Source: Polytrichum commune (Eukaryota > Streptophyta > Polytrichopsida > Polytrichales > Polytrichaceae). From it: a stretch of DNA of 64,000 nt. The notes below the pieces were generated by a model, which was given only the letters and a program-made list of their open reading frames with translations, had not been told where the DNA came from and made no database searches. Below, in pieces: positions 5,801 through 63,780 of the stretch (positions are counted from its first letter, which is position 1; each line of letters opens with the position of its first letter). The stretch is taken from positions 44,754,796 through 44,818,795 of the forward strand of contig OX485807.1 of NCBI GenBank assembly GCA_950295325.1, written 5' to 3'. The translations under genes and the position numbers were made by a program.

Positions 5801-5829
5801 TGTTTTATTTTATTTTATTTTATTTTATT
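5801..5829. repeat. (TTTTA)n microsatellite
   Basis: Five tandem pentanucleotides, about 50 bp upstream of the fold-back element. Confidence 0.8.
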
Positions 5830-5881
5830 GTAGACCATGTTTTCTTTAACGAACTGTTAAACATCTACAGCCTTTAAAACA

Positions 5882-6704
5882 AGGGGATCGCTATTTCCAC
5901 ACCTTTTTTGGCTAGATTCACACCTTTTTGCTTGTTCGGTTGGCGTTGCACTGAGGCGCTACATATAAGATTCTTCATGGTGCATCCGGACCGTTGATCC
6001 ACCAAGGCCCATCCAAGGGCGTCAATGATCCTAGGTGGCGGTGGGGTGGGGGGCGGGGGTGGTGCTTGCCACCAAGGCGGGGTGGGGCCGTGGGCCTCAT
6101 GTCTTTTTTGGGGAGGCCGGATTTAGGGTGGTGTCGGGCCCAGTGGCTAGGCCTACTTATTATATAACTAGTTGGTCACCCTTACTCTACTTACTAAATA
6201 ACTAGTTGGTTAGCCTTACTCTACTTACTAAATGACTAGTTGGTTACCCTTACTCTACTTACTAAATAACTAGTTGGTTACCCTTACTCTACTTACTAAA
6301 TATTTAGTAAGTAGAGTAAGGGTAACCAACTAGTCATTTAGTAAGTAGAGTAAGGCTAACCAACTAGTTATTTAGTAAGTAGAGTAAGGGTGACCAACTA
6401 GTTATATAATAAGTAGGCCTAGCCACTGGGCCCGCCTAGCCACTAGGCCCGACACCACCCTAAATCCGGCCTCCCCAAAAAAGACATGAGGCCCACGGCC
6501 CCACCCCGCCTTGGTGGCAAGCACCACCCCCGCCCCCCACCCCACCGCCACCTAGGATCATTGAGGCCCTTGGATGGGCCTTGGTGGATCAACGGTCCGG
6601 ATGCACCATGAAGAATCTTATATGTAGCGCCTCAGTGCAACGCCAACCGAACCAGCAAAAAGGTGTGAATCTAGCCAAAAAAGGTGTGGAAATAGCGATC
6701 CCCT
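5882..6704. mobile_element. 823-bp near-perfect fold-back (long inverted repeat) element with 6-bp target duplication
   Basis: Left arm 5882-6301 and right arm 6302-6704 are reverse complements with only a handful of mismatches and essentially no loop; the symmetry centre is the palindrome ACTAAATATTTAGT. The ends are AGGGGATCGC and GCGATCCCCT, directly flanked by the duplicated hexamer AAAACA (5876-5881 and 6705-6710). Each arm contains a 34-bp tandem repeat (key phrase 'ctagttggttacccttactc'): four copies in the left arm and three in the right. The right arm also has a 17-bp duplication near 6430. No frame encodes a transposase. The high arm identity and intact duplication suggest a recent insertion or gene conversion between the arms. 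Confidence 0.9.
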
Positions 6705-6710
6705 AAAACA

Positions 6711-9299
6711 ATTGATTTTTTTATAAAAAGAATGTAAACGCTTTTACAAGGATGTTAAACCCTTAAATAACTAACAAGGCCCCTTGGGGCTTTTTTTTGG
6801 TCAAACTTCAACTTCGGCTTGAAGATTATTTTCACCATTGACGAGCTCAATTGATGCAATGAACTTCTTGAGGTCTTCTTTGTATTTCCCCTTTACATGT
6901 GCAATGTTTCCAATATCTTAAGCTTTTGATTGTATTAGCAAGCTCTATAGACCTAAGACTTCAACTACACTACATAGGTTGTTTTTTTTCCATTAAATAT
7001 CTACATTTGAAAACTATAGCTTAATTTGATCTTAGCATGTGAAAGTTTCGTGATTTTAAGATTTGTTTCATAATTTTATGATCTAATGTCTACATAAATA
7101 TAAATCCAACTTGACAAATTTTCATTGAACCGTCAAAAGAAAAAGCAAAAGAAACTTGAAACCCATCATGCAACATATGATTTATAAGCTATTCATTTCA
7201 AACTTGTTGAGAGCCTTCATCAACTTTTGACAGTAGTGGTCGCCCCGTTGTTCTTCATTGTTCCTGAAAAGGTTGGAGGACCGCCTTAAAGTGACGTGTC
7301 ATATGCATGGGTGCAAGGGGCTGGGATGGCATGGGGCCCATACTACATTGAATTGTCTTATTAGTGTGGGCAAAAAACTAACATGTAGTTAAATAACGTG
7401 GGCCACACTAAAATTATGGTCAAGGTTAAATTAGCGTGTGTCCAAGCCCCCAAGCCTCCCCCTAAGTTTTCATGAAGACTACCGACCAACACATTCAAGA
7501 TTAGTTGCATGGAAAAGGCAACACAATTAAAATAATGACCAACATTCATTTCCTAGATAAACAATTAATGTGATCCACACTAATTTCCTACTAGAAACTA
7601 AGCATGGCTTAAAAATCAATATGGCCAACATAAATTTCCAGTATGAGCATTAGTGTGGGCTCTAGAAAATTATTGAGGTCCACAATATTATGATTATTAA
7701 GTGCAATACAATTTACAAGGTCAATGTAAAGTGAACTTGAGCGAACAAGCATGGGTAAGAAACTCCAACTTTTTCCCCCCAAATCAAATCAAATCAAATT
7801 AATTATAAAGTACATGAACCCAAAAAGCCCATCACAACGTCACAAATACCATGCCCACACTAAGACCAACAACTAACCCACACTAGTGGGAGAGTTTCCA
7901 TCTTGATAGGAGTCATTGTCTTGTATGCACTAGCAAAACTTCACTAGTGAGGATATTGTGATAGGACCCAAAAAAAACCCATACTGGTTGCAATAAAATT
8001 TGAAAAAAAAGCATTTTCCAAGTCGTAAGGGACTCCTCATGTTGCCCAGGACCAATGTCTTGCCCTATAATGTAGACATGGTACAAGAAGGCCCAAGCGA
8101 AACAACCGGTACAGTGGTTCCTTGGAGACAGGACTGCAGTCATCCAACAAGGACCCAACGTATGGGTTGGGTCGCCCTCCCCGGTATAAGGAAGGCTTAT
8201 CTCTTCATTGCTCTCAACCTCCATGTACTCTAGCCTTAGTGGAAAGTGGGGGGGCCTTATTAAGTACTTCGTCGTGTTACAGGACGCGACTTGTGACAAG
8301 CCGAGAACGAGCCATGACGTCCTTGTCCTATGCCAACTCTGCACACATGTGTTTGGGTGTCCACTTTGCTGACATGTTAACCTCATTATGTCCGGGGCCG
8401 CCTCGGTGGCCTAACGGGAACTTGTCATCTTTATAGACTCAACATTATTTTTGTTCACAAGTCAACCACTTTTCTATGATATCCCCAATAGCTCATGACG
8501 AACTTTGAGCGTCAGGTATACATACAAAAACCCATCTAGAAGCAAATGTAACCACATAACATTACACAAAAGCCCCTTGGTTGCGTTCTATATATGGACC
8601 ACGTATCACACGAGCACCAACTTTTTGACAAGCATTTAATCGCATATGTAAGTTATTATGAGAGCTTTCGAATCGTATCCACTTTCTTTGAAAAAAAGAC
8701 GATCATGTAGTTGTTTAGCAATTGTATACATTTATTGAGTAATGTCTTTGGAGATCATCATGGCACTCGTCTCCGGATGGTGTACATGTTCACAACACCT
8801 ACCATTCGGGAACGTGAAAAAATTGTTTCTTAAGTAGAGATTGGTGATTATTCTAAACCAAATTAACACTTGAATTGGGGTCAAAGACCTTGGATTCGTC
8901 TACGGGTGTCGATTTAGAATGAATCGATGATAAATCTATAGAGGTTGGAGTTTATTGCACCCCACCGGTAGATGTTGCGAAAGGAAATTGCATTGGGAAC
9001 ATGTGAAGTAGTGAACATAGGTTTTTGGGTCCACATAAAATATGATGCCCTTATGTAAGTGTTGTTTTTTTTTCTTGTTCCTCTTCTCTTGATCATATTT
9101 ACGTCTTCAATTTTGTGTTGCATGACAAATCTATAGTAACACATAAACGAAAGCAATATTGAATACATTATCTCCCCTAATCTAGTTATATTTCTCGTAA
9201 TTGCACATTTGTTGATTCCTTAACTAAATACATACATCTTCTCCATCGAGTTCACAATAGAGTGTCGAGTAGTTGATAGAATTCAAAGATGCAATGCAA
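6711..9299. other. Gene-free stretch with degenerate repeats
   Basis: Only short open frames occur, on both strands, with no recognisable domain and no consistent splice pattern. The words 'gtgtgggc' and 'cacactaat' recur between 7340 and 7880 in both orientations, which suggests several eroded MITE fragments. I see no RNA gene. Confidence 0.5.
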
Positions 9300-13099: not shown

Positions 13100-15534
13100 A
13101 AGTGGTGAGTGTTTGCGAGGGGGGGAGAAGTTGAAGTAACTTAGTGGCTATGGCGGAAGTCGGGACTCGTAGCGAACAACGAGGGAGTTGAAGGGCAGGG
13201 GATGATGCTCCCACTCTTCTCCGATTCTGCAATGCTGGTGGGGGCCATATTTCTTCTTCTACTGCTGCTGTCAGATTCACAGACAGACGGACGGACAGAC
13301 GCTTCGCATCGCATCACAGCGCACCGCAGTATCGTGCTCCTGCAATATGTGAGTTGCCGCTTCCGCCGCTGTTCACGTTCGTCCACCTTCGACGACAGTG
13401 ATTTGTTTTCGTATGTTTTTTTTTGGCATTGTTTTCGGCTGTTTTTGAATCGGTGTCGTTGCGGATCGAGGAGCTTTAATGTGCGACCACCGGACGCACG
13501 GAGTTGTGGTTCATTTGCAGTGCTCCCGAGAGAGAGAGTGTGTGTGTGCGCGCGCGTGCAAGCGCAAGGGTACGGCGTGATGAGATGAGTTTCGTTAGTG
13601 ATTATTATTGCGAGGTGCGAAAAATTCGGAGGCTTGGGGCTTGTGTAAGTAGTGTGCATTTGTGGAGAGTGGATTGGAATTGGAGGCTGAGGATAGATAG
13701 GGAGAGTGGGCGTTCGAGTTGGGACAAAACGTTTACTTTGGAACAGTGTCGTTGTTTGTGCCGTTGCAAGTTTAGTGCGTCGCAATGGGAGGGAGGAAGG
13801 TTGGCTTCGCTAGCTTTGGAAACGGTTAAGGTTTGATAGCAGTTATTTGAGGTGCTTCTGTTGTGAGGCGTGTTTGGAGCTTCCAAGAGTGTCTCCTGAG
13901 AGAAAAACTCTCGAGTCTCAACCATGCCATAAATTTCGCGGAGGTGAGGCGTGGATCCTTGCTTTCCGCAAATCCGGTCTGCTTTGCGCTGTACGCGAGG
14001 GCTTTTGTTATTGTGCTTTAGGGGAATGATTGATCGTGTCGCCACTTCTTCGAGGTGATCCAACTTTCAGCAGCGACCACAGTGTTTATGTCGCGGTTGC
14101 TGCATTGCTCGAGAGAGCTTTATGCGGTCTCTAGTTGCTTGTAAGCACCAACTTCAAGCATTGGCTGGCCTCAGGTGTGGAATAATATTAGATAACAGGT
14201 TGCAATCAAGTCTCTCTCATTGAAATCAACGGCAGATCTGCTCACACCTGCAAAAATAATCTCCTATGTGCATATTTGCGAGAAACTCGCACCGGTTACT
14301 TGACACCTTAGTGAGGATAGGATCCAAGCTTGGGAGTTTTAAGGTAGACGGTTCGGTATCTTCGGCCACAAGCAAGCCATTGATTTCAAAGATTTTGGCA
14401 AAAGCTTTTGATACCGTTCGTAGTTCAAGAGCCTCGATGAATTGATATGGCTGTTTTCCTCTCTTCTATCCTGTTCTCTCTTCTATCCTGTTCCAGAAGC
14501 ATTGCATAGGTGGCGGCAGGAGGAATAGTGAAACTGTAATGACGGTGCTCTGTTTCAGGACAGAGCAAACGAGCTAGAGTTCGAAAAAGTTTACGTTACT
14601 TCACTCCGAGTCGTGAGTATGCTCTTTCCATCAAGAATTGTCCAAAAAAGCTTTGGTACTCTTGTGCACACGAGGATAACTAGAGACAACCAACATACTT
14701 GCTTTTGCTTCTTCGTCCATGAAGCGCGGAGTTCCAACTTATCTTAGTCAGATATAAGTGAAATTTATTTTGACCGAAGAAGGCGCTGCCTTAAACACAA
14801 ATCAATTCTCGTTGTCTTCTATTCATAGAAATTTTCTGTTTTGTGCCCGAGTGCACACGGCGCTTCCACTTTCCCAACAGACATGTCATATTTTGTATGT
14901 ATTGACCCTTGTATCAACTTGTGTCAAGATGCAAGCGTGAGATGTATTAGAAGGTGTTAACAGAGTTGACTGGTCTCGCAGCTATACGTAATTAAAGTTT
15001 GATTTCAGGTTTGTATTTGTACCTGTCTTTCTGACCTTTGTGACTACTCACTCCCTGGCGCTTATTTATGAAAGCAGCAATATGTGTGTATTTGGAGTTT
15101 GTGATTATGGTGATTCAGTCTCTATCTCCTGATTCTGAACTTTTGTCGTAATGACTGGGTTACTTCATATTTGTTCAGTCATGGTGATTATCACAACTTG
15201 TTTATTAGAGGGCGTTTTGCGAAGGCGATGTGAGAAATGTGATTCCTGCTTTATAGAATTTGCTATGTTCTCAACTGTTGTGTTTCCTCATGTGCTTGCC
15301 TACACTGTTGGACTTATGTTTCCTTGCCTTGTGCAGAATTGAGGAGTTCATTGTACCGATAAGAAGGAGAAATCGATCATTAGTCAGCTCTTCCGATGTA
15401 TCTTTAGGCGAGGTCTTAAACTGCCGACTCAGCTGATATGACAGTCAACAGACGAGGACAGCGACAGAAACAGGTGTCCTAGGATATATATTTAATATTG
15501 ACAAGACTAACGGAGAGCAAGTAGGGTTACAAAA
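13100..15534 (+). promoter_or_regulatory. Promoter-proximal region and spliced 5' leader of RhoGDI
   Basis: The sequence changes character at about 13140: it becomes CpG-richer with purine/pyrimidine-biased tracts, including (GA)n at 13528-13539, (TG)n at 13539-13549 and (CG)n at 13549-13557, as often seen in plant 5' leaders. A strong acceptor (pyrimidine-rich, ending 'gccttgtgcag' at 15336) suggests the coding exon starts at 15337 with about 198 nt of leader, preceded by a leader intron whose donor I could not fix (somewhere between about 14100 and 15010). The exact transcription start is not determinable from sequence. Confidence 0.5.
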
Positions 15535-16317
15535 ATGTCAAAGACGGTGTCCAACTGGTTTGGGCGTGCCCACAGCAAATCTTTATCGAAGGACCTGAAT
15601 ATGTCCAAGCAGACCACACGTGAAGCTGCAGAGGAAGCAGCGACGGAGAACAAGGAGAACAGCCCCGAAAAGGATCAGAAATCTCTCCAAAAGTGTGAAT
15701 CCCTTCCAACGAACTTGATCCAATTTGAATCTGACGATGATGAGTCCCAAGCAGAGGAAACTCCATGCCCCAAATTTGACGAAAGGGAGCTGGGTCCCTT
15801 GGTGTCGTTAAAAGAACAGATTGAGAAGGACAAGGAGGATGAGAGCTTGAGACGATGGAAGGCCCAGCTATTGGGTGCTGATGCTAGCCTAGATGCTGTA
15901 AATGATTACATTGAACCCGAAGTGAAAGTTGTTTCATTGGGTGTGGTGTCAAAGGGACGACCGGATAGTATTCTCCCATTGCCTTTGGCCACGAATTCAA
16001 GGGGCTACACATTCTCCTTGAAAGAGGGATCCACTGTGAACTTGAAGTATGTGTTCACAGTACGAAACAATATTGTTTCGGGGCTGACAATCATCAACAC
16101 TGTATGGAAAGCTGGGTTGAAAGTGGACCAGACTCGCGACATGATGGGTACATTTGCCCCGCAACAAGAGCCTTATGTTCACATGTCGGAAGAGGAGGTC
16201 ACGCCTTCGGGTCCTTTAGCCAGAGGGGCTTACACAGCCCGGAAGAGGTTCATTGATGACGATGGCAAAGTCTACCTCGATTTAGATTACTCATTTGAGA
16301 TCCGCAAGGACTGGTAA
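15535..16317 (+). CDS. RhoGDI: Rho GDP-dissociation inhibitor (plant RhoGDI)
   Basis: Single-exon 260-residue protein. RhoGDIs bind prenylated Rho/Rop GTPases in the GDP state, extract them from the plasma membrane and keep them in the cytosol, which in plants restricts polar growth sites. Residues 1-~80 are a charged, disordered arm with an acidic run (ESDDDESQ, 65-72). Residues ~80-120 fit the helical regulatory arm that contacts the GTPase switch regions. Residues ~128-260 fit the Ig-like beta-sandwich that holds the prenyl group. Visible family motifs are 'GRPDSILPL', 'LKEGS', 'GLKVDQT', 'MMGTFAPQQEPY', 'TPSGPLARGAY' and the C-terminal 'YSFEIRKDW'. Length matches plant members (about 230-260). 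Met23 is a possible alternative start. The stop codon overlaps a perfect splice-donor sequence (see findings). Family assignment is firm; the Rop partner is inferred. Confidence 0.95.
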   Translation: MSKTVSNWFGRAHSKSLSKDLNMSKQTTREAAEEAATENKENSPEKDQKSLQKCESLPTNLIQFESDDDESQAEETPCPKFDERELGPLVSLKEQIEKDKEDESLRRWKAQLLGADASLDAVNDYIEPEVKVVSLGVVSKGRPDSILPLPLATNSRGYTFSLKEGSTVNLKYVFTVRNNIVSGLTIINTVWKAGLKVDQTRDMMGTFAPQQEPYVHMSEEEVTPSGPLARGAYTARKRFIDDDGKVYLDLDYSFEIRKDW

Positions 16318-32082: not shown

Positions 32083-35000
32083 TCACAGAGATGACAAGGG
32101 TCCAATGCCATGCATGAACGATTTCATGCTGCTGCTGCTTCTACTATTGACGCACTCAGGAACACTCCCACCTCCTGTAGTTGCTGCTTTTGCTTCACCA
32201 CTTTGATCTTGAGAGCTTGGAGTTGATTCACTCTTCGTCTCTGCATTTACGCAGTGCTTTTGTAGCCAACGATCCATCTCCCACAAGCAATGCATAACAC
32301 TCTCATGCCCTTCGTAGCCATGACTCTCCAATGGCAGAAGGACAAGCCTGGTGAGGACGCCATGCCCTTTCAATGCGCTGAAGAACCTCTCTGACTGATT
32401 TACCAACAAGGCAAAAGTGATTATAATACATACTGTGGGCCGCACTCTATTGAGCTTATTTCCACACTAAATAAATTGGGGATAATGCTGAGGGTGCACA
32501 TATTTACCAACCCACACAATTGAACATCAGAAATCCACGTTATAGGTTACAGTATTTCTATTCGATTGAAACATAGCGTGCATTTGAAAGACTTAAAACC
32601 TAGAGGAAGGAGGTGGGTACATCACAAGGGCACGACTAGTGTAACTAGGGTTACACTCTATTTATTGTGGGCCACATTATAGGTTGCCCAAGGTATGGGA
32701 CTATACATCTGCCTGCACTATTTACCATAATCAGTGTAATTAGAGCACTGCATTGAAAATCATGGACCTCTGTTTTGGGTAGACACCTGGACATAATCTT
32801 ATGCATTGAAGGTTTGGTTACAAACATCCAAGCCGTTACATTCATAGAGTCATTTGTACCAACCTGCATTGTCATGGTGCCAGCATTGTTATCTTCATCC
32901 CCATGGATCAGAAGAATGGGTTTCTTTATGCGATCTGCATACATGTAAGGACTCATCTCAATGTAGGTCTTCTGAGCTGCCCAAAGAGTTCTCTCCTCAG
33001 CCTGCCACCACATAAAAGGGCCACAAATTCGTCAGTGTCAAACATCAGACCTGGGTATCAAGTGTGCACAATGGACAACAGAACCGACAACTTAGAAGCA
33101 AATAAATCCTCTGCTTCACTTTTTGTGCTAGTCAAATAGAATGGTAAAGTACCTGAAAGCCAAAGGGAGTGAGGGTCCGATTGTACGCCCCAGATCGAGC
33201 AATTCCACAGCAATATAATTCTGAGGCATGGATCAAGAGATTCGCAGTCATAAAGGCTCCATATGAATGACCACCCACCGCAATCTTGCTGCGATCGGCA
33301 ACCTGTATATGCCTGATGATTAGCTATAAATCTAATTACTCAAGTGACAGGTCCAAATGCTGCAATGAAAAGAAGGTTACTCTTCTTTTGTGCATGTGTT
33401 ATCAGGACAGGTGCTCCATATTAATTACCATCCAAGAGTATAGATTTTGACTTCCAACTGTCAATCAGTTCCAACTTGAAACAGCCTAGATGGGGAGAGG
33501 ACAATAGAAGCACAGCCTAACTACCTTTATACCGAGGCTTCTTTTCTGTTCCCCTCAATTTATAGAGGTAGGCTGCTGAGTGTCTCTGACCCTCCCATCA
33601 GAAAACCTGAAAATTCGTGACGCTTGCTTTTATTTTGAGCAGTCTCTTAATTTACATTCAAAGGTCATGTGGCAGAAGGTTGTGTAGAGAAAACTGTAGC
33701 GGGTGACAACAGGGAATAATCATGAATTACTTGCACCCTCTTACACTTTATTGAACTGCGCCACTTGTGACAGAATCTCAGATTTCAATCTTAACAAATG
33801 GAGGTCCTCGGGACATCAAAGAATCAGAAATTGTCAGAAAATGGAGACGTCTAACTTATCATGTCCTGGTTCTTTCATGAGCAATTGTCACCTCAACAAG
33901 ATTTCTTAGTGAGTATTCCTCAAATTTTAATGACAGAAGCAACCTTAGTTGCATATTAGTAAAAAGAAATTGAAGACATACCCCACGCTTGACAACTTCG
34001 TCAACAGCAGCTTGTGCACTTGCAACCAGCTGCTCAACATATCTGCAAGGAACCTCAAGTTCAGGTAAAATCACATGTAGAAGTCGAGCACTCCATACTT
34101 ACAGAATGTATGTCCAATGTCCCAGTTAAAATTGAATGAAATACAATCACGTGAGACCATTTGGACACAAAAAAGCCTGAACCTCATCAAAACAATGCGG
34201 AAAGTGAGGCTCTGCTTCAGATACAGGACACATGTACCTATGAAGCCTTGGACGCCATCAATCTAAACAAGACTGCAAAGGTTGATTCCTGTGAGTTAAA
34301 CATGCTCACCAAGTGAAGAGTTCATACCTTTCATTGGGTTCTTCCTCCCCTTCACCAATGATAGGCATCGTTGGCCCTTCCAGGATTGCAAAACTGCAGA
34401 TTGGATGTACTTTAGCCACAATGTTTACCATAACTGAAGTCATTCACTTCCTTCCGGAGACATAAAAAGAGGAAAACCAAGCCAGCACTTGCCAGAAAGT
34501 TTTTATCATTTCTATTAGAATGCAGTCTCCAGGGTTCTCTACTCCACAGGTGCAAGAATTGCGTGTAAGGGAAAACATAGAGAGGAATGATCTCCTTACC
34601 CCCTGGACAGCCACAAAAGTGGAGATGTGGACCCTATCCCAGCAAAAGCAAATGGAGAGCCCCTCATTTGGCTCGCATTATCTTTGCTCTTAAACTCCCG
34701 AGGATATGCCCACATGAGCATTGGAAGTGGCCCATCCCGAGCTGAATCGTATGCAGGTGGAGTGTACAAAGTTGCAGTAAGCTGGACTCCATCAGCCCTT
34801 TCGTACCTTATAATCTCTTTCGTGAGATCCTTTAGCTGGGGATAGGGATGGGGAAAGTTGGTAATTTTTGTTTCCTGTTTGTTGGGCCAACATACCATGT
34901 AGTACTGTGGGGGCTCTGTTTGTGACTCTCTTGAAATAACCATTTTAAGGTTATCAAGAGCCAAATCTTCATCCCCTCGGGGAGCCATTAAGACTTGCAT

Positions 35001-43653: not shown

Positions 43654-43958
43654 CTTAACTTGTCAATATCTCAAATGAAATGATACCACCCTTGCGGTGG
43701 CAAAGAAATGTTATTATAATAAAAATTTAATGAAATTTTGTTCGGGGAAAAGAAGACGAAGAGAAGAGAAGACAAAAGAATGGTCATACTTGCATTTTTT
43801 TCAAAACTGCCCTTTTTTGACATGTATTAAAAAAACCCAGCACATTCACTTTTTGGTGCATGGTCATTCCTCTTGGTCTATTCGGTTCACACCTAGTGAG
43901 GGGCCCAAAGGCTTTATAAATTGACATTTTTTTTTTGAAGAAATCGGACCATGAAAGT

Positions 43959-44034
43959 TGGACCATGAAGTCGGACCATGGAAAAATGCCATCTTCCATG
44001 GTCCAACTTCATGGTCCATGGTGTAAACTAGCCC
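43959..44034. repeat. Tourist-like terminal fragment forming a 24-bp hairpin
   Basis: Arms 43959-43982 and 43995-44018 pair over 24 bp with one mismatch and a 12-nt loop. The segment ends 'gtgtaaactagccc' followed by TAA, the same terminus as the element ending at 46040. Confidence 0.7.
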
Positions 44035-44037
44035 TAA

Positions 44038-45729: not shown

Positions 45730-46040
45730 GGGGTTGTTTACACCATGGACGATGAAGTTGTCCCAAGGCCTTGTAAAATTTGTGATTGGTTGTTGAACTC
45801 GTCCCAAGACCATTTCAGTTTACACCAAGGAAAAAAAAGTCAGAGTGACCATGGAGTTTGAGGTCTCCAAAAGGCATATTTCAAGGCCTACATTGTCCAC
45901 TAACACGGTCTAATGGGTTTTGGGTGAAGTAAATTGATTTTCTAGGAATTTGGACCATGAAAGTTGGACCATGAAGTCGGACCATGGAAATGGGCCATCT
46001 TCCATGGTCCGACTTCATGGTCCATGATGTAAACTAGCCC
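45730..46040. mobile_element. Tourist-like MITE, 311 bp, flanked by TAA
   Basis: The left end 'ggggttgtttacaccatgg' is an imperfect inverted repeat of the right end 'ccatgatgtaaactagccc'. Both sides are flanked by TAA (45727-45729 and 46041-46043), the target duplication typical of PIF/Harbinger-derived Tourist MITEs. Near its right end a perfect 24-bp inverted repeat (45965-45988 and 46001-46024) with a 12-nt loop forms a strong hairpin. It is non-coding. Confidence 0.75.
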
Positions 46041-46043
46041 TAA

Positions 46044-47747: not shown

Positions 47748-48908
47748 TAATAGTGTCACTTACCATATTTTGAAGCATATGCTAGGTTACACTAATGATG
47801 AACAACTACACCATTATGGTTATCTCATGACACTTGGTGTTCAAGCTCGCTTACTAATTTATGGGCATGAGTTTTTTAATTAGTGTTATGAGGTGTATGC
47901 CTATCTTGCACAATGGTCTACAAGTTGACTTAAAGTGTGCACAAATGACACTTGGGATTAGTATACTCAAGAAAATCTTCTTCATGCACACTAAAATGTA
48001 AACACATGATTAATGCCATTAGTATGCTCAATAATATCTTCCCCTTGCTTACTAAAACACATAACTACCATCTCAAGTATTAGTCCCAATGTGCTACGCT
48101 AAATGTCATAATGTAATTGAGTTTTCACTTTATAAAATACTTATGTTGATGAATAGTATCATATTGGCAATTAGTGGATGTGACACTTTGAGACCTCTAG
48201 GTATCTAGTTTAGGCTCTTTGCAAATAGTGTAGTCCCCTTTAATGTAGATGTCAATTGTCTCCTTTGTTTTGGGGCGAATGTTCTTAAACCCTACCGAAG
48301 GGGAGAGCCAAAATGCTACAACTATTGTAGGACCTAGGGATTGCTAATGCTAGTCAAATCACCCCCAAATCGTGGTCAACAACCCAAACTACTCTACACC
48401 ATTTATGGTATTCAGTGTCATGTACACTATTTGCAACGGGCCTAAAATAGATGCCTAAAGATCTCAAAGTGTGCTAATTGTCAATATGGGACTATTCGTC
48501 AACGTAAGTAATTTTTTAAAGTGGGAAGTTATTTACATTAGGACTTTTAGGACAACACATTGGGTTTCTTAGGCAATGCTCTTCTTATTATATAAAAAAT
48601 TAGTATGCAAAAGGAAAACATTACTTAGCATACTAATGGCGAATATCTTGTGTTTACATTTTAGCATGCATGAGGAAGATATTATATTGAGCATGTTAAT
48701 GCCAAGTGTCATTTTGTGTGCACTGTAGTAAACTTGTAGACCATTGTGTAACATATGCATACACCTCATTACACTATTGAACCTACTCATGCCATGATAT
48801 TAGTAAGTGCACTTGAATGGCAAGTGTCATGTGGTGACACTAACAGTGAAGTCGTTGATCATTAGTGTAACCTAGCATATGTATCAAATAGGGTAAGTGA
48901 CACTATTA
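47748..48908. mobile_element. 1.16-kb fold-back element with arms of about 485 bp
   Basis: Left arm about 47748-48233 and right arm about 48423-48908 are reverse complements at roughly 75-80%. The ends are 'taatagtgtcactta' and 'taagtgacactatta'. Matching internal blocks include 'gctaggttacactaatga', 'caatggtctacaagtt' and 'gcaaatagtgta' with their complements. The loop of about 190 bp is unrelated. The arms are clearly older than those of the 5882-6704 element. It is non-coding. Confidence 0.8.
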
Positions 48909-51320: not shown

Positions 51321-52010
51321 GGGCTACCATTTGGAGTTACGCATTGCTATAGCTTTGTTGTGGAATATCATTATGTCACAAGCAAGTTATATTGCATCAT
51401 GTTCCTTGATGTGCACACTACACTAAATATTCCAATTAGTGAGTGTGGAACATTAGTGAAGGTGGCACTACATTTCTCTACACTTTCTGCATTAGGAAGC
51501 ATTGTTCATCTTGACATTTGGCACTAATCACTTAAAGTGCTGGCACTTGGCATGAAAGTACTAGCACTTAGCACTAATCATTAAAAGTGTTGGCACTTGG
51601 CATGAAAGTACTAGCACTTAGCATTAATCATTGAAAGTGCTGGCACTTGGCATGAAAGTACCAACACTTAGCACTAATCATTAAAAGTGTTGGCACTTGG
51701 CATGAAAGTACCAACACTTAGCACTAATCATTAAAAGTATCAGCACTTGGCACGATTCACCGACAAGCATGTGGCATGCACTAATCACAAGCACGCACTA
51801 ATTTCCTTGAAATTTATGGTAAATGAGCATAGATTCTACCATAGTCATGAATTTAGTTTCACTCATTAGCAACTTTAGCCTTAAACAACTTTGAGATTTG
51901 ACTAGATTGTGCGTGTGACTTGAATCAGTACCACCCTCACTAATTGGTGTATTTAGTGTAGCCATTTACATTATCTGGTTATAACAACATGTAGCTCCAA
52001 ATGGTATCCC
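51321..52010. mobile_element. Non-autonomous element, 690 bp, GGGNTACC terminal-repeat family, with internal tandem repeats
   Basis: The left end 'gggctaccatttggagttac' and the right end 'gtagctccaaatggtatccc' are inverted repeats of about 31 bp with about five mismatches, continuing into 'ttgctata' and 'tataacaa'. The same ends are on the 161-bp element at 3028-3188. The interior holds the 50-bp tandem array at 51521-51755. No transposase frame is present. Confidence 0.65.
51521..51755. repeat. 50-bp tandem repeat, about 4.7 copies
   Basis: Units start at 51521, 51571, 51621, 51671 and 51721 with 'gcactaatca' (one unit 'gcattaatca') and continue 'ttggcacttggcatgaaagt'. Each unit contains small internal inverted repeats such as agtgctggcact. 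Units are about 90% identical; the last is partial. Confidence 0.9.
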
Positions 52011-61275: not shown

Positions 61276-61867
61276 TGGCGTAGTTTGCCTCTGGAATTTG
61301 GAGAATCTGACCCCGAATCCGAGGCATCGGTTACTGCGTGATGAACATCACACAACACCCATCACATTTTCGATCATAGTTCACATTCATCCCTTGTTTC
61401 CGTCGATTACAAAGAACAAGCATTAGGCATGGAGTTGGATTTGCGAATTTGACGTAGTTTGCTTCTGGAATTTGGAGAATCTGACCCGAATCGGAGGATT
61501 GGTTGTTTATGTGTGACCATCAGCATCACACAACAACCTTCACATGTTTGACTTGATCATATATCACATTCATACCCTGTTCCATCATCGATTACAAAGA
61601 GAGAGCATTCTCATGTTAGGTTTGCACCTGCAATTGATTTTGAAGTAGTTTGCTTCTAAGATTAGGAGAATCGGAGGATCCCGAATCGGAGGATCGGTCG
61701 TTTATGTGTGATTATCAACATCACACAGCAACCATCACATCTTTGATTTGATCACATGTCACATTCATCCCCTTTTCCATCTTCGATTACAAAGACCAAG
61801 CATGCTCATGTTATGTATAAACTTGGATTTGTAATTTTGAAATAGTTTGCTTCTGGAATTTGCATAG
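61276..61867. repeat. Tandem repeat of 174-197 bp units, 3.2 copies, immediately upstream of HGLS
   Basis: Units start at 61276, 61450, 61641 and 61838 (partial) with 'tg..gtagtttgc.tctgg' or similar. They continue through 'gagaatc', 'cggag', 'catcacac', 'catcaca', 'tcacattcat' and 'cgattacaaag'. The array ends about 190 bp before the start codon at 62057, so it lies in the promoter or leader. Confidence 0.85.
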
Positions 61868-62056: not shown

Positions 62057-63602
62057 ATGGCATTGTCAGCAAGCGCCGCTGTTGCGAGGGGGGTAGTAGT
62101 GGGCTGTAGAAGCAGCAGCACCGGGAACAGCAGCGGCAGCATATTGGCGTGTGGTTTACGAGGCGCGAGAGGGATTCAAGTCGGTGTGCAGAGAGATTCA
62201 TTATCCTGCTTCTTGTCCAGCAATTGGCTGCGGAGTGGCCGCAGATTGGAGGCTGTGGTGAGACGGGGCGTCACCATGAATTCCTTGAAAACCCCCAAGG
62301 ATGCACATCAGCAGGTATGAAGGCTCATCTAATATTTTTGAGTAGCCTATTTAGATTCCGGTGCAAATGGAATGATTCTTAGGTAATCCAGATAACATTA
62401 GAATCATGCCATTTGGGACTTATGCATCCCTAAAATTGAATCTTGGTAGATGGAAGGAGGCTTACTGTCCAAATTTCATAGACAACAATGAGGTTCTGTC
62501 GATTTATGAGAGCTTAATGCCACTTGACTTTGCTCGATGGCATTCATGCATGTACTCAAGGACTTTGATTCTTGATGAAATCTTATTCTTGAAACTAGAA
62601 TAGAAAGAGAACGTCCTTACTCTCGCATGCTTGACAATGCTACAAACTGCCATCGCCCTGAAGATTAGGGTTTCATTTACGAATTCAAATTGTGACCATG
62701 ACCACTTGAAACTGAATTTCCTGTCATATGGCAACCAAATTCTAGGAATTTCCTTTCAACTCATAACTCTTCAGTGGAAAGAGTTTAGAGTGGAAAGACA
62801 ATGATCTGGCCAAGACTGGATTGACAAAAGAGTTTGATAGATCAGATTTTTTCCTCTGGAGCTGATGTGGTAAATGTCAGATTCACATTGAGTCCTTCAG
62901 ATGAGGTTACAATAAGCCTTGGGACTTGATGAGTACCCTGGATGTATTGACAGACATTCTCAATGGATGCTTTGGGCATCCTTTTGTGCAAATTCTCTAT
63001 TGCTGTGCCACCATGTGCTGATAATTCTTGAATTTGAGGATTTGAGAACCAAAAGTGTGCGCAATCCACCACTAATGTGAGATGGCCACTGTTTTCTATC
63101 ACAGGCACAACCGTCGGTACCATTGTTGCGTAGCATTTTGTCAGCAATGGTGAAGCCATATTTAACGAAGAACCCTACTGCGGTGGCAGCTTTGGACCTG
63201 ATTCGAAAACACGATGGGGGCCCTCTCTGCTACGACCACTTTGCATTTCGCACGTTTGGAGTAAGTCAAGGTCCTTCCTCCCTGATGTATTTTACCATCC
63301 ATACCAAGACACCATTTTCATCACATGCCAAGCAGGAGTTTAGGGTTTCGGGTTGAGTTGTTGACATCTTTATGAGCAAATTGCAGGTCAATGGATGTGG
63401 GATCGATGCTATGTCCCAAGTATTCCTTGATCTTGGTTACAGGGTTCGCGACGAGCTTCGGTTTCCCTCCAAGAAGCTGCGTGCTCTGTGGTTCTCCCCA
63501 CCGGATCATCTGCTTGACATGGAGGGCAGTGAGGCAGACGGGCCACTGCCCCGTATCTTCATATCTGAAATCAATGTGCATGAGCTCAGCAGTGAATCAC
63601 AG
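62057..63602 (+). CDS. HGLS: 2-oxoadipate dioxygenase/decarboxylase-like protein (DUF1338, HglS/FLO7 family), 5' part only
   Basis: HglS-type enzymes are non-heme iron oxygenases that convert 2-oxoadipate to D-2-hydroxyglutarate in lysine breakdown; the plant homologue acts in plastids and its loss alters starch (rice FLO7). Exons seen are 62057-62314, 63105-63260 and 63387-63602, all phase 0, encoding 210 residues; the gene continues past the right edge. Residues 1-~45 are rich in Ser, Ala, Arg and Gly with no acidic residues, as in a plastid transit peptide. Family motifs are 'YDHFAFRTFG' (His ~131, a likely metal ligand), 'FLDLGYRVRDELRFPSKKL' and 'ALWFSPP'. The start at 62057 is the first ATG after the GA-rich leader and is followed by the transit-like sequence. 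The catalytic C-terminal half is outside the window, so activity cannot be judged. Confidence 0.88.
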
Positions 63603-63780
63603 GTGGGGGTTTTACAATTTGGCTATTGGATTAAATTGGGAATTGTCTCATCCAATTACCAAACCACAAAAATTGTGATTTCAAGTTCTGAATCGGAGTT
63701 GGTGCAAAAGTTATAGGAGGTCAGAGTAAAGATTCTCTTTCCCTTTAAGTGACCACATAGGCCCTCCCAATTGTGGTGTT

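Follow-up and report, generated by a model that had tools for sequence, protein, structure and literature searches.

A spacerless foldback element in Polytrichum commune, most likely Mutator-like, with an exact 8-bp target-site duplication

An 821-bp element at positions 5883-6703, bounded by the ends GGGGATCGC...GCGATCCCC, is best explained as a non-autonomous foldback-type DNA transposon that consists of terminal repeats only and most likely belongs to the Mutator-like elements (MULEs). We put the probability of this reading at roughly 0.77, with the superfamily judged from structure. All positions refer to the window, the whole 64,000-nucleotide stretch of Polytrichum commune DNA that was analysed. 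A sequence-only reading had flagged the locus as a fold-back element with an intact target duplication. The fold-back is real, its arms being identical in 383 of 385 aligned columns, and so is the sign of mobility, an exact 8-bp copy of TAAAACAA on both sides (Table 1).

The limits of the element deserve some attention, as the length of the duplication is a pointer to the superfamily. The earlier parse gave an extent of 823 bp and a 6-bp duplication, AAAACA. The AAAACA repeat does exist, as the middle of TAAAACAA, and the boundaries themselves are best moved one base inward on each side, which lengthens the duplication to 8 bp without mismatch. The palindrome can also be read one base longer, because the A at 5882 pairs with the T at 6704. 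At the spacing of the element the window offers 63,164 position pairs, and the only one with a shared 8-mer is that of the element itself. Under the 6-bp parse, 31 of 63,166 position pairs agree, three of them the element's own and 28 by chance. The probability that a random pair of 8-mers agrees is 2.7e-5 in the window and 1.0e-4 in the 500-bp flanks, or 4.0e-5 in the flanks once a TTTTA array is left aside. The sequence is therefore best read as carrying the 8-bp duplication, which is the more economical parse.

Beyond the duplications the symmetry ends: 19 of 60 flanking positions are complementary, so there is no mirror symmetry outside the element. The palindrome therefore most likely predates its insertion at this site and moved as a unit. 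An inverted duplication made in place is unlikely on the same count, as it would be expected to have mirrored the flanks too.

Table 1. Positions of the element, its parts and the recognised coding frames in the window
Feature	Position	Strand	Basis or remark
Left target-site duplication TAAAACAA	5875-5882	+	exact match to 6704-6711
Left arm, 419 bp, starts GGGGATCGCTATTTCC	5883-6301	+	aligned to reverse complement of right arm
Left outer domain, GC 0.589	5883-6152	+	
Left subterminal direct repeats, two of 19 bp, 21 bp start to start	5890-5908, 5911-5929 (span 5890-5929)	+	84% identical
Left inner domain, four 34-bp units + 13 bp, GC 0.322	6153-6301	+	
Palindrome centre, AAAT/ATTT, without spacer	6301-6302	.	
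Right arm, 402 bp, reverse complement of left	6302-6703	-	alignment
Right inner domain, 13 bp + three 34-bp units	6302-6416	-	identical to left units 1-3
17-bp tandem duplication, right arm only	6417-6433, 6434-6450	-	one mismatch; gap in left arm
Right subterminal repeats, two of 19 bp	6657-6675, 6678-6696 (span 6657-6696)	-	
Right target-site duplication TAAAACAA	6704-6711	+	exact match to 5875-5882
Rho GDP-dissociation inhibitor	15,511-16,314		Pfam, E 6.4e-67
Prolyl-oligopeptidase-family fragment	32,086-32,466		Pfam, below curated cut-off
Prolyl-oligopeptidase-family fragment	32,654-33,031		Pfam, above curated cut-off
2-oxoadipate dioxygenase/decarboxylase fragment	63,357-63,713		Pfam

The internal anatomy is that of a foldback. 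Long inverted repeats typically make up most of such an element, and here the two arms (419 + 402 bp) account for all 821 bp. Foldback arms are also divided into an outer domain and a run of tandem repeats, and this arrangement is found too, with 34-bp units in the inner domains. When aligned, the arms differ by two substitutions, both of them transversions, and by 51 gap columns that resolve into one 17-bp and one 34-bp gap. Much of the first description survives at this level of detail: there is no loop between the arms, the left arm has four full 34-bp units to the right arm's three, the 17-bp duplication occurs in the right arm alone and the arm identity is indeed near 99%. Next to the centre, each array closes with a partial 34-bp unit of 13 bp. 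The 19-bp repeats just inside each end are possible transposase-binding sites. Within the window the element stands alone: allowing up to 3 mismatches, its 16-bp end recurs nowhere but at its two termini, and a search with the left arm gave nothing significant outside 5801-6800 (best E 0.92).

The repeat units also carry a record of the history of the arms. Units 1-3 show no difference between the arms in 102 bp, and among the four left units pairwise differences amount to 1-4 bp in 34. As the units differ within and not between arms, the array must have diversified before the arms became mirror copies, or else the arms were corrected against each other afterwards. The 17-bp and 34-bp differences have the look of slippage at a later stage. 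How old the insertion may be is a separate question. At plant rates, two differences in 385 columns would correspond to about 0.2-0.4 million years, a figure that we discount, as palindrome arms can correct each other and their identity is a weak clock. The argument for youth that was first drawn from arm identity is thus weakened, as that identity need not measure age, while the intact duplication retains its value as a separate sign of an apparently recent insertion.

The assignment to the Mutator-like elements is likely because three features coincide, namely the 8-bp duplication, the GGGG...CCCC ends and the long arms; the foldback structure with tandem repeats inside the arms fits it as well. 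The sequence-only reading, starting from 6 bp, had named no superfamily; with the duplication corrected to 8 bp one can be proposed. Each of the three features has its limits. According to the available part of one survey, MULEs have target duplications of 8-11 bp and long inverted repeats (PMC6446971); the usual duplication length is 9 bp, so that the 8 bp seen here lies at the low end of the range and is a minority length, and long inverted repeats such as these are common and not universal among MULEs. Ends of the form 5'GGG...CCC3', matched here by GGGG...CCCC, mark some plant families and not all MULEs. The barley family Hvu_Abermu is reported to combine conserved 5'GGG...CCC3' ends with TA-rich insertion regions, and in the portion seen of that report its duplications are 8 bp long in 10 of 278 cases and 9 bp in 267 of 278 (PMC9168764). 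Grapevine MULEs, by the extract consulted, always have 9-bp duplications when they have any (PMC2528002). The Jittery group, in its dicot and monocot part, is listed with 'Not indicated/8 bp' (PMC6446971). That 9 bp and not 8 is the usual length counts against a Mutator-like reading.

Among the rivals the main one is a non-autonomous hAT foldback whose long arms grew secondarily by inverted duplication. An 8-bp duplication is exactly what a hAT element should leave. hAT ends are typically CAGGG or TAGGG, and the GGGG end of the element does not match them. Short ends would also be expected. In the accessible part of the grapevine study the high-copy hAT families do have 8-bp duplications, but their ends span 8-23 bp against arms of about 400 bp here (PMC2528002). 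Taken together, a hAT origin is unlikely. The first parse could instead be kept, with a 6-bp duplication, AGGGG...CCCCT ends and a foldback of some other superfamily. AAAACA does flank the element exactly under this parse, and foldbacks outside Mutator exist, e.g. Galileo of the P superfamily, going by a title cited in PMC4079207. It does, however, need a coincidental extra match on each side, a T on the left and an A on the right, to reach 8 bp, when chance matches of 8 bp at this spacing are absent elsewhere in the window and those of 6 bp number 28. We regard it as more doubtful than a hAT origin.

The possibility that the palindrome is a fold-back artefact of assembly or sequencing has to be weighed as well. 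Some library methods are known to produce palindromic reads. Against this, the mirror stops on both sides at a transposon-like terminus that lies inside an exact duplication, the flanks are unmirrored as described above, and two substitutions and two indels distinguish the arms. An artefact is accordingly very improbable, the least probable of the alternatives given here.

For the Mutator-like foldback that we prefer, a plausible history can be sketched. A MULE transposase encoded elsewhere in the genome would bind the long ends, cut the whole palindrome from a donor site and insert it here, duplicating TAAAACAA in the process. How the palindrome came about is inferred more weakly, from its anatomy alone. 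The centre without spacer suggests that one end of a parental element was broken inside its 34-bp array and then either copied as its own mirror image or joined to it, perhaps by way of a hairpin-capped break or a fusion of sister ends. The numbers of 34-bp and 17-bp repeats would later have been altered in one arm by slippage or unequal repair.

Comparison with described elements shows that the anatomy resembles that of known Mutator-family foldbacks, and that this is a kind of element already described. The nearest described build, as far as the parts of the literature available to us go, is MuTAnT of Medicago truncatula. It was first found as a 292-bp foldback with almost identical 144-bp arms and GGGG/CCCC ends, is non-autonomous like our element, and has a relative that codes for a Jittery-like transposase (PMC4486113). 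Two arms of 144 bp in 292 bp leave a spacer of about 4 bp, so that a near-absent spacer is not unique to the present case. In contrast, MuTAnT has 9-bp duplications and inserts into TA microsatellites, and 90% of its copies are 200-300 bp long (PMC4486113), whereas the element described here is 821 bp long, has an 8-bp duplication, lacks a TA array and carries a 34-bp tandem repeat in its arms. Compared with the search mask used for MuTAnT, its end has the same base at 9 of the first 11 positions and at 10/16 overall. A score of 10 or more is reached by 215 of the 127,970 16-mers on both strands of the window (0.17%), and this likeness, being short and noticed after the fact, is a hint only.

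The Arabidopsis foldback FARE reportedly goes back to a paper by Windsor and Waddell in 2000. It is a further plant case with long palindromic repeats, known to us here through citations, one of which classes it among the MULEs (PMC4486113). Outside plants there are two instructive parallels, each taken from part of its source. Tm1, a Mutator/Foldback element of root-knot nematodes, likewise has composite arms in which the number of tandem repeats differs between the arms of one element, and its duplications are 8-10 bp long in 45 of 53 cases, with 9 bp the commonest (PMC3169594). It differs in its host, its 13-15 bp units, the unlike 7-bp motifs at its outer ends and its arms, which are on average 93.15% identical (PMC3169594). 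Tetris, a foldback of Drosophila virilis, shares the flanking domain, the internal tandem repeats, the lack of a transposase and duplications of 8-10 bp, and has been suggested to be Mutator; its host is an insect, its arms reach 1,735 bp and its repeats have given rise to a satellite (PMC4079207). Finally, MULEs with multiple long terminal repeats, reported in the available text from tomato, Arabidopsis, rice and maize, demonstrate that MULE ends can be duplicated within mobile elements. These are mostly tandem copies around an interior, whereas here the ends meet directly as mirror images (PMC3310237).

The coding content is in keeping with this simple structure. At E up to 0.01, Pfam gave no hit to the longest open stretches in the element (80, 80, 70 and 66 aa), and on that basis we take it to be non-autonomous. 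The window holds 74 stop-free frames of 90 aa or more, and 40 of these were scanned against Pfam at the same threshold. Four of the 40 gave a match, none of them to a transposase family, and the closest of these recognised frames begins some 8.8 kb to the element's right. There are no tRNAs in the window. Exact searches with the end of the element in viral contigs (20 bases) and prokaryote genomes (21 bases), and with a 23-base piece of the 34-bp unit in viral contigs, gave no match, which is to be expected of plant sequence. From its gene types and repeats the window is taken to be plant nuclear DNA. In the literature, the only piece of the end sequence among the matches listed was the 10-mer AGGGGATCGC, in papers with unrelated titles; a search for a shared MULE end motif returned nothing relevant, the matching titles being unrelated.

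Several other repeats are scattered over the window. A 106-bp repeat is present in two copies that are 91% identical and about 2 kb apart (43932-44037 and 45938-46043), each with a short palindrome that contains GGACCATGG and CCATGGTCC; these are perhaps two members of a family of small hairpin repeats. Another inverted-repeat structure, more diverged than the element, occupies 47769-48888; its arm pairs measure 162 and 84 nt, with 80-81% complementarity, and 544 nt separate the inner pair. Tandem arrays are found at 51514-51752 (50-bp unit, 4.8 copies, 91% matches) and at 1486-2268 (294-bp unit, 2.0 copies, 94% matches, with a 123-nt part recurring at 2146-2268 at 86%), and a tandem duplication with a 195-bp period lies at 61448-61854 (2.1 copies, 82% matches).

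RNA transcribed across the element would fold into a near-perfect hairpin, about 400 bp long. The predicted RNA fold has an energy of -832.9 kcal/mol, compared with a mean of -276.3 kcal/mol for 20 shuffles, so the arms are far beyond chance and the earlier expectation that any transcript would adopt a long double-stranded fold is borne out by the prediction. Could the locus then work through a hairpin RNA and silence the family it came from, in the way that Mu killer acts on MuDR in maize? This idea is compatible with a Mutator-like foldback, and its probability is to be counted separately from those of the rivals above. Besides the predicted hairpin, it draws on the precedent of Mu killer, which carries mudrA as an inverted duplication together with two copies of a MuDR terminal repeat, and for which hairpin RNA has been proposed in the portion of the report seen (PMC3440606). 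That said, transposition alone explains the structure, Rfam gave no match anywhere in the window at the gathering threshold, and Mu killer carries transposase sequence, whereas the four longest frames of the element match no Pfam family. Nor does a read-through hairpin model simply fit Mu killer itself, because by the same partial source sense read-through transcripts were seen in the plants that failed to silence, and the plants that did silence had two short antisense transcripts (PMC3440606). A silencing role for the locus is improbable.

More speculative still is the notion that two copies of a single MULE end, joined as mirror images with no spacer, form a mobile dimer that silences its own family, through the shared ends, wherever it is transcribed. 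On the same analogy, and with similarly slim odds, such a dimer would be a mobile, small-scale equivalent of Mu killer that lacks recognisable transposase sequence.

Long palindromes without a spacer are usually unstable, and an intact and apparently recent one is for that reason a clean case for study. The element is suited to investigating how a foldback may originate from one transposon end and how the repeat numbers of its arms change. If it is transcribed, it would also readily supply double-stranded RNA directed against its own family.
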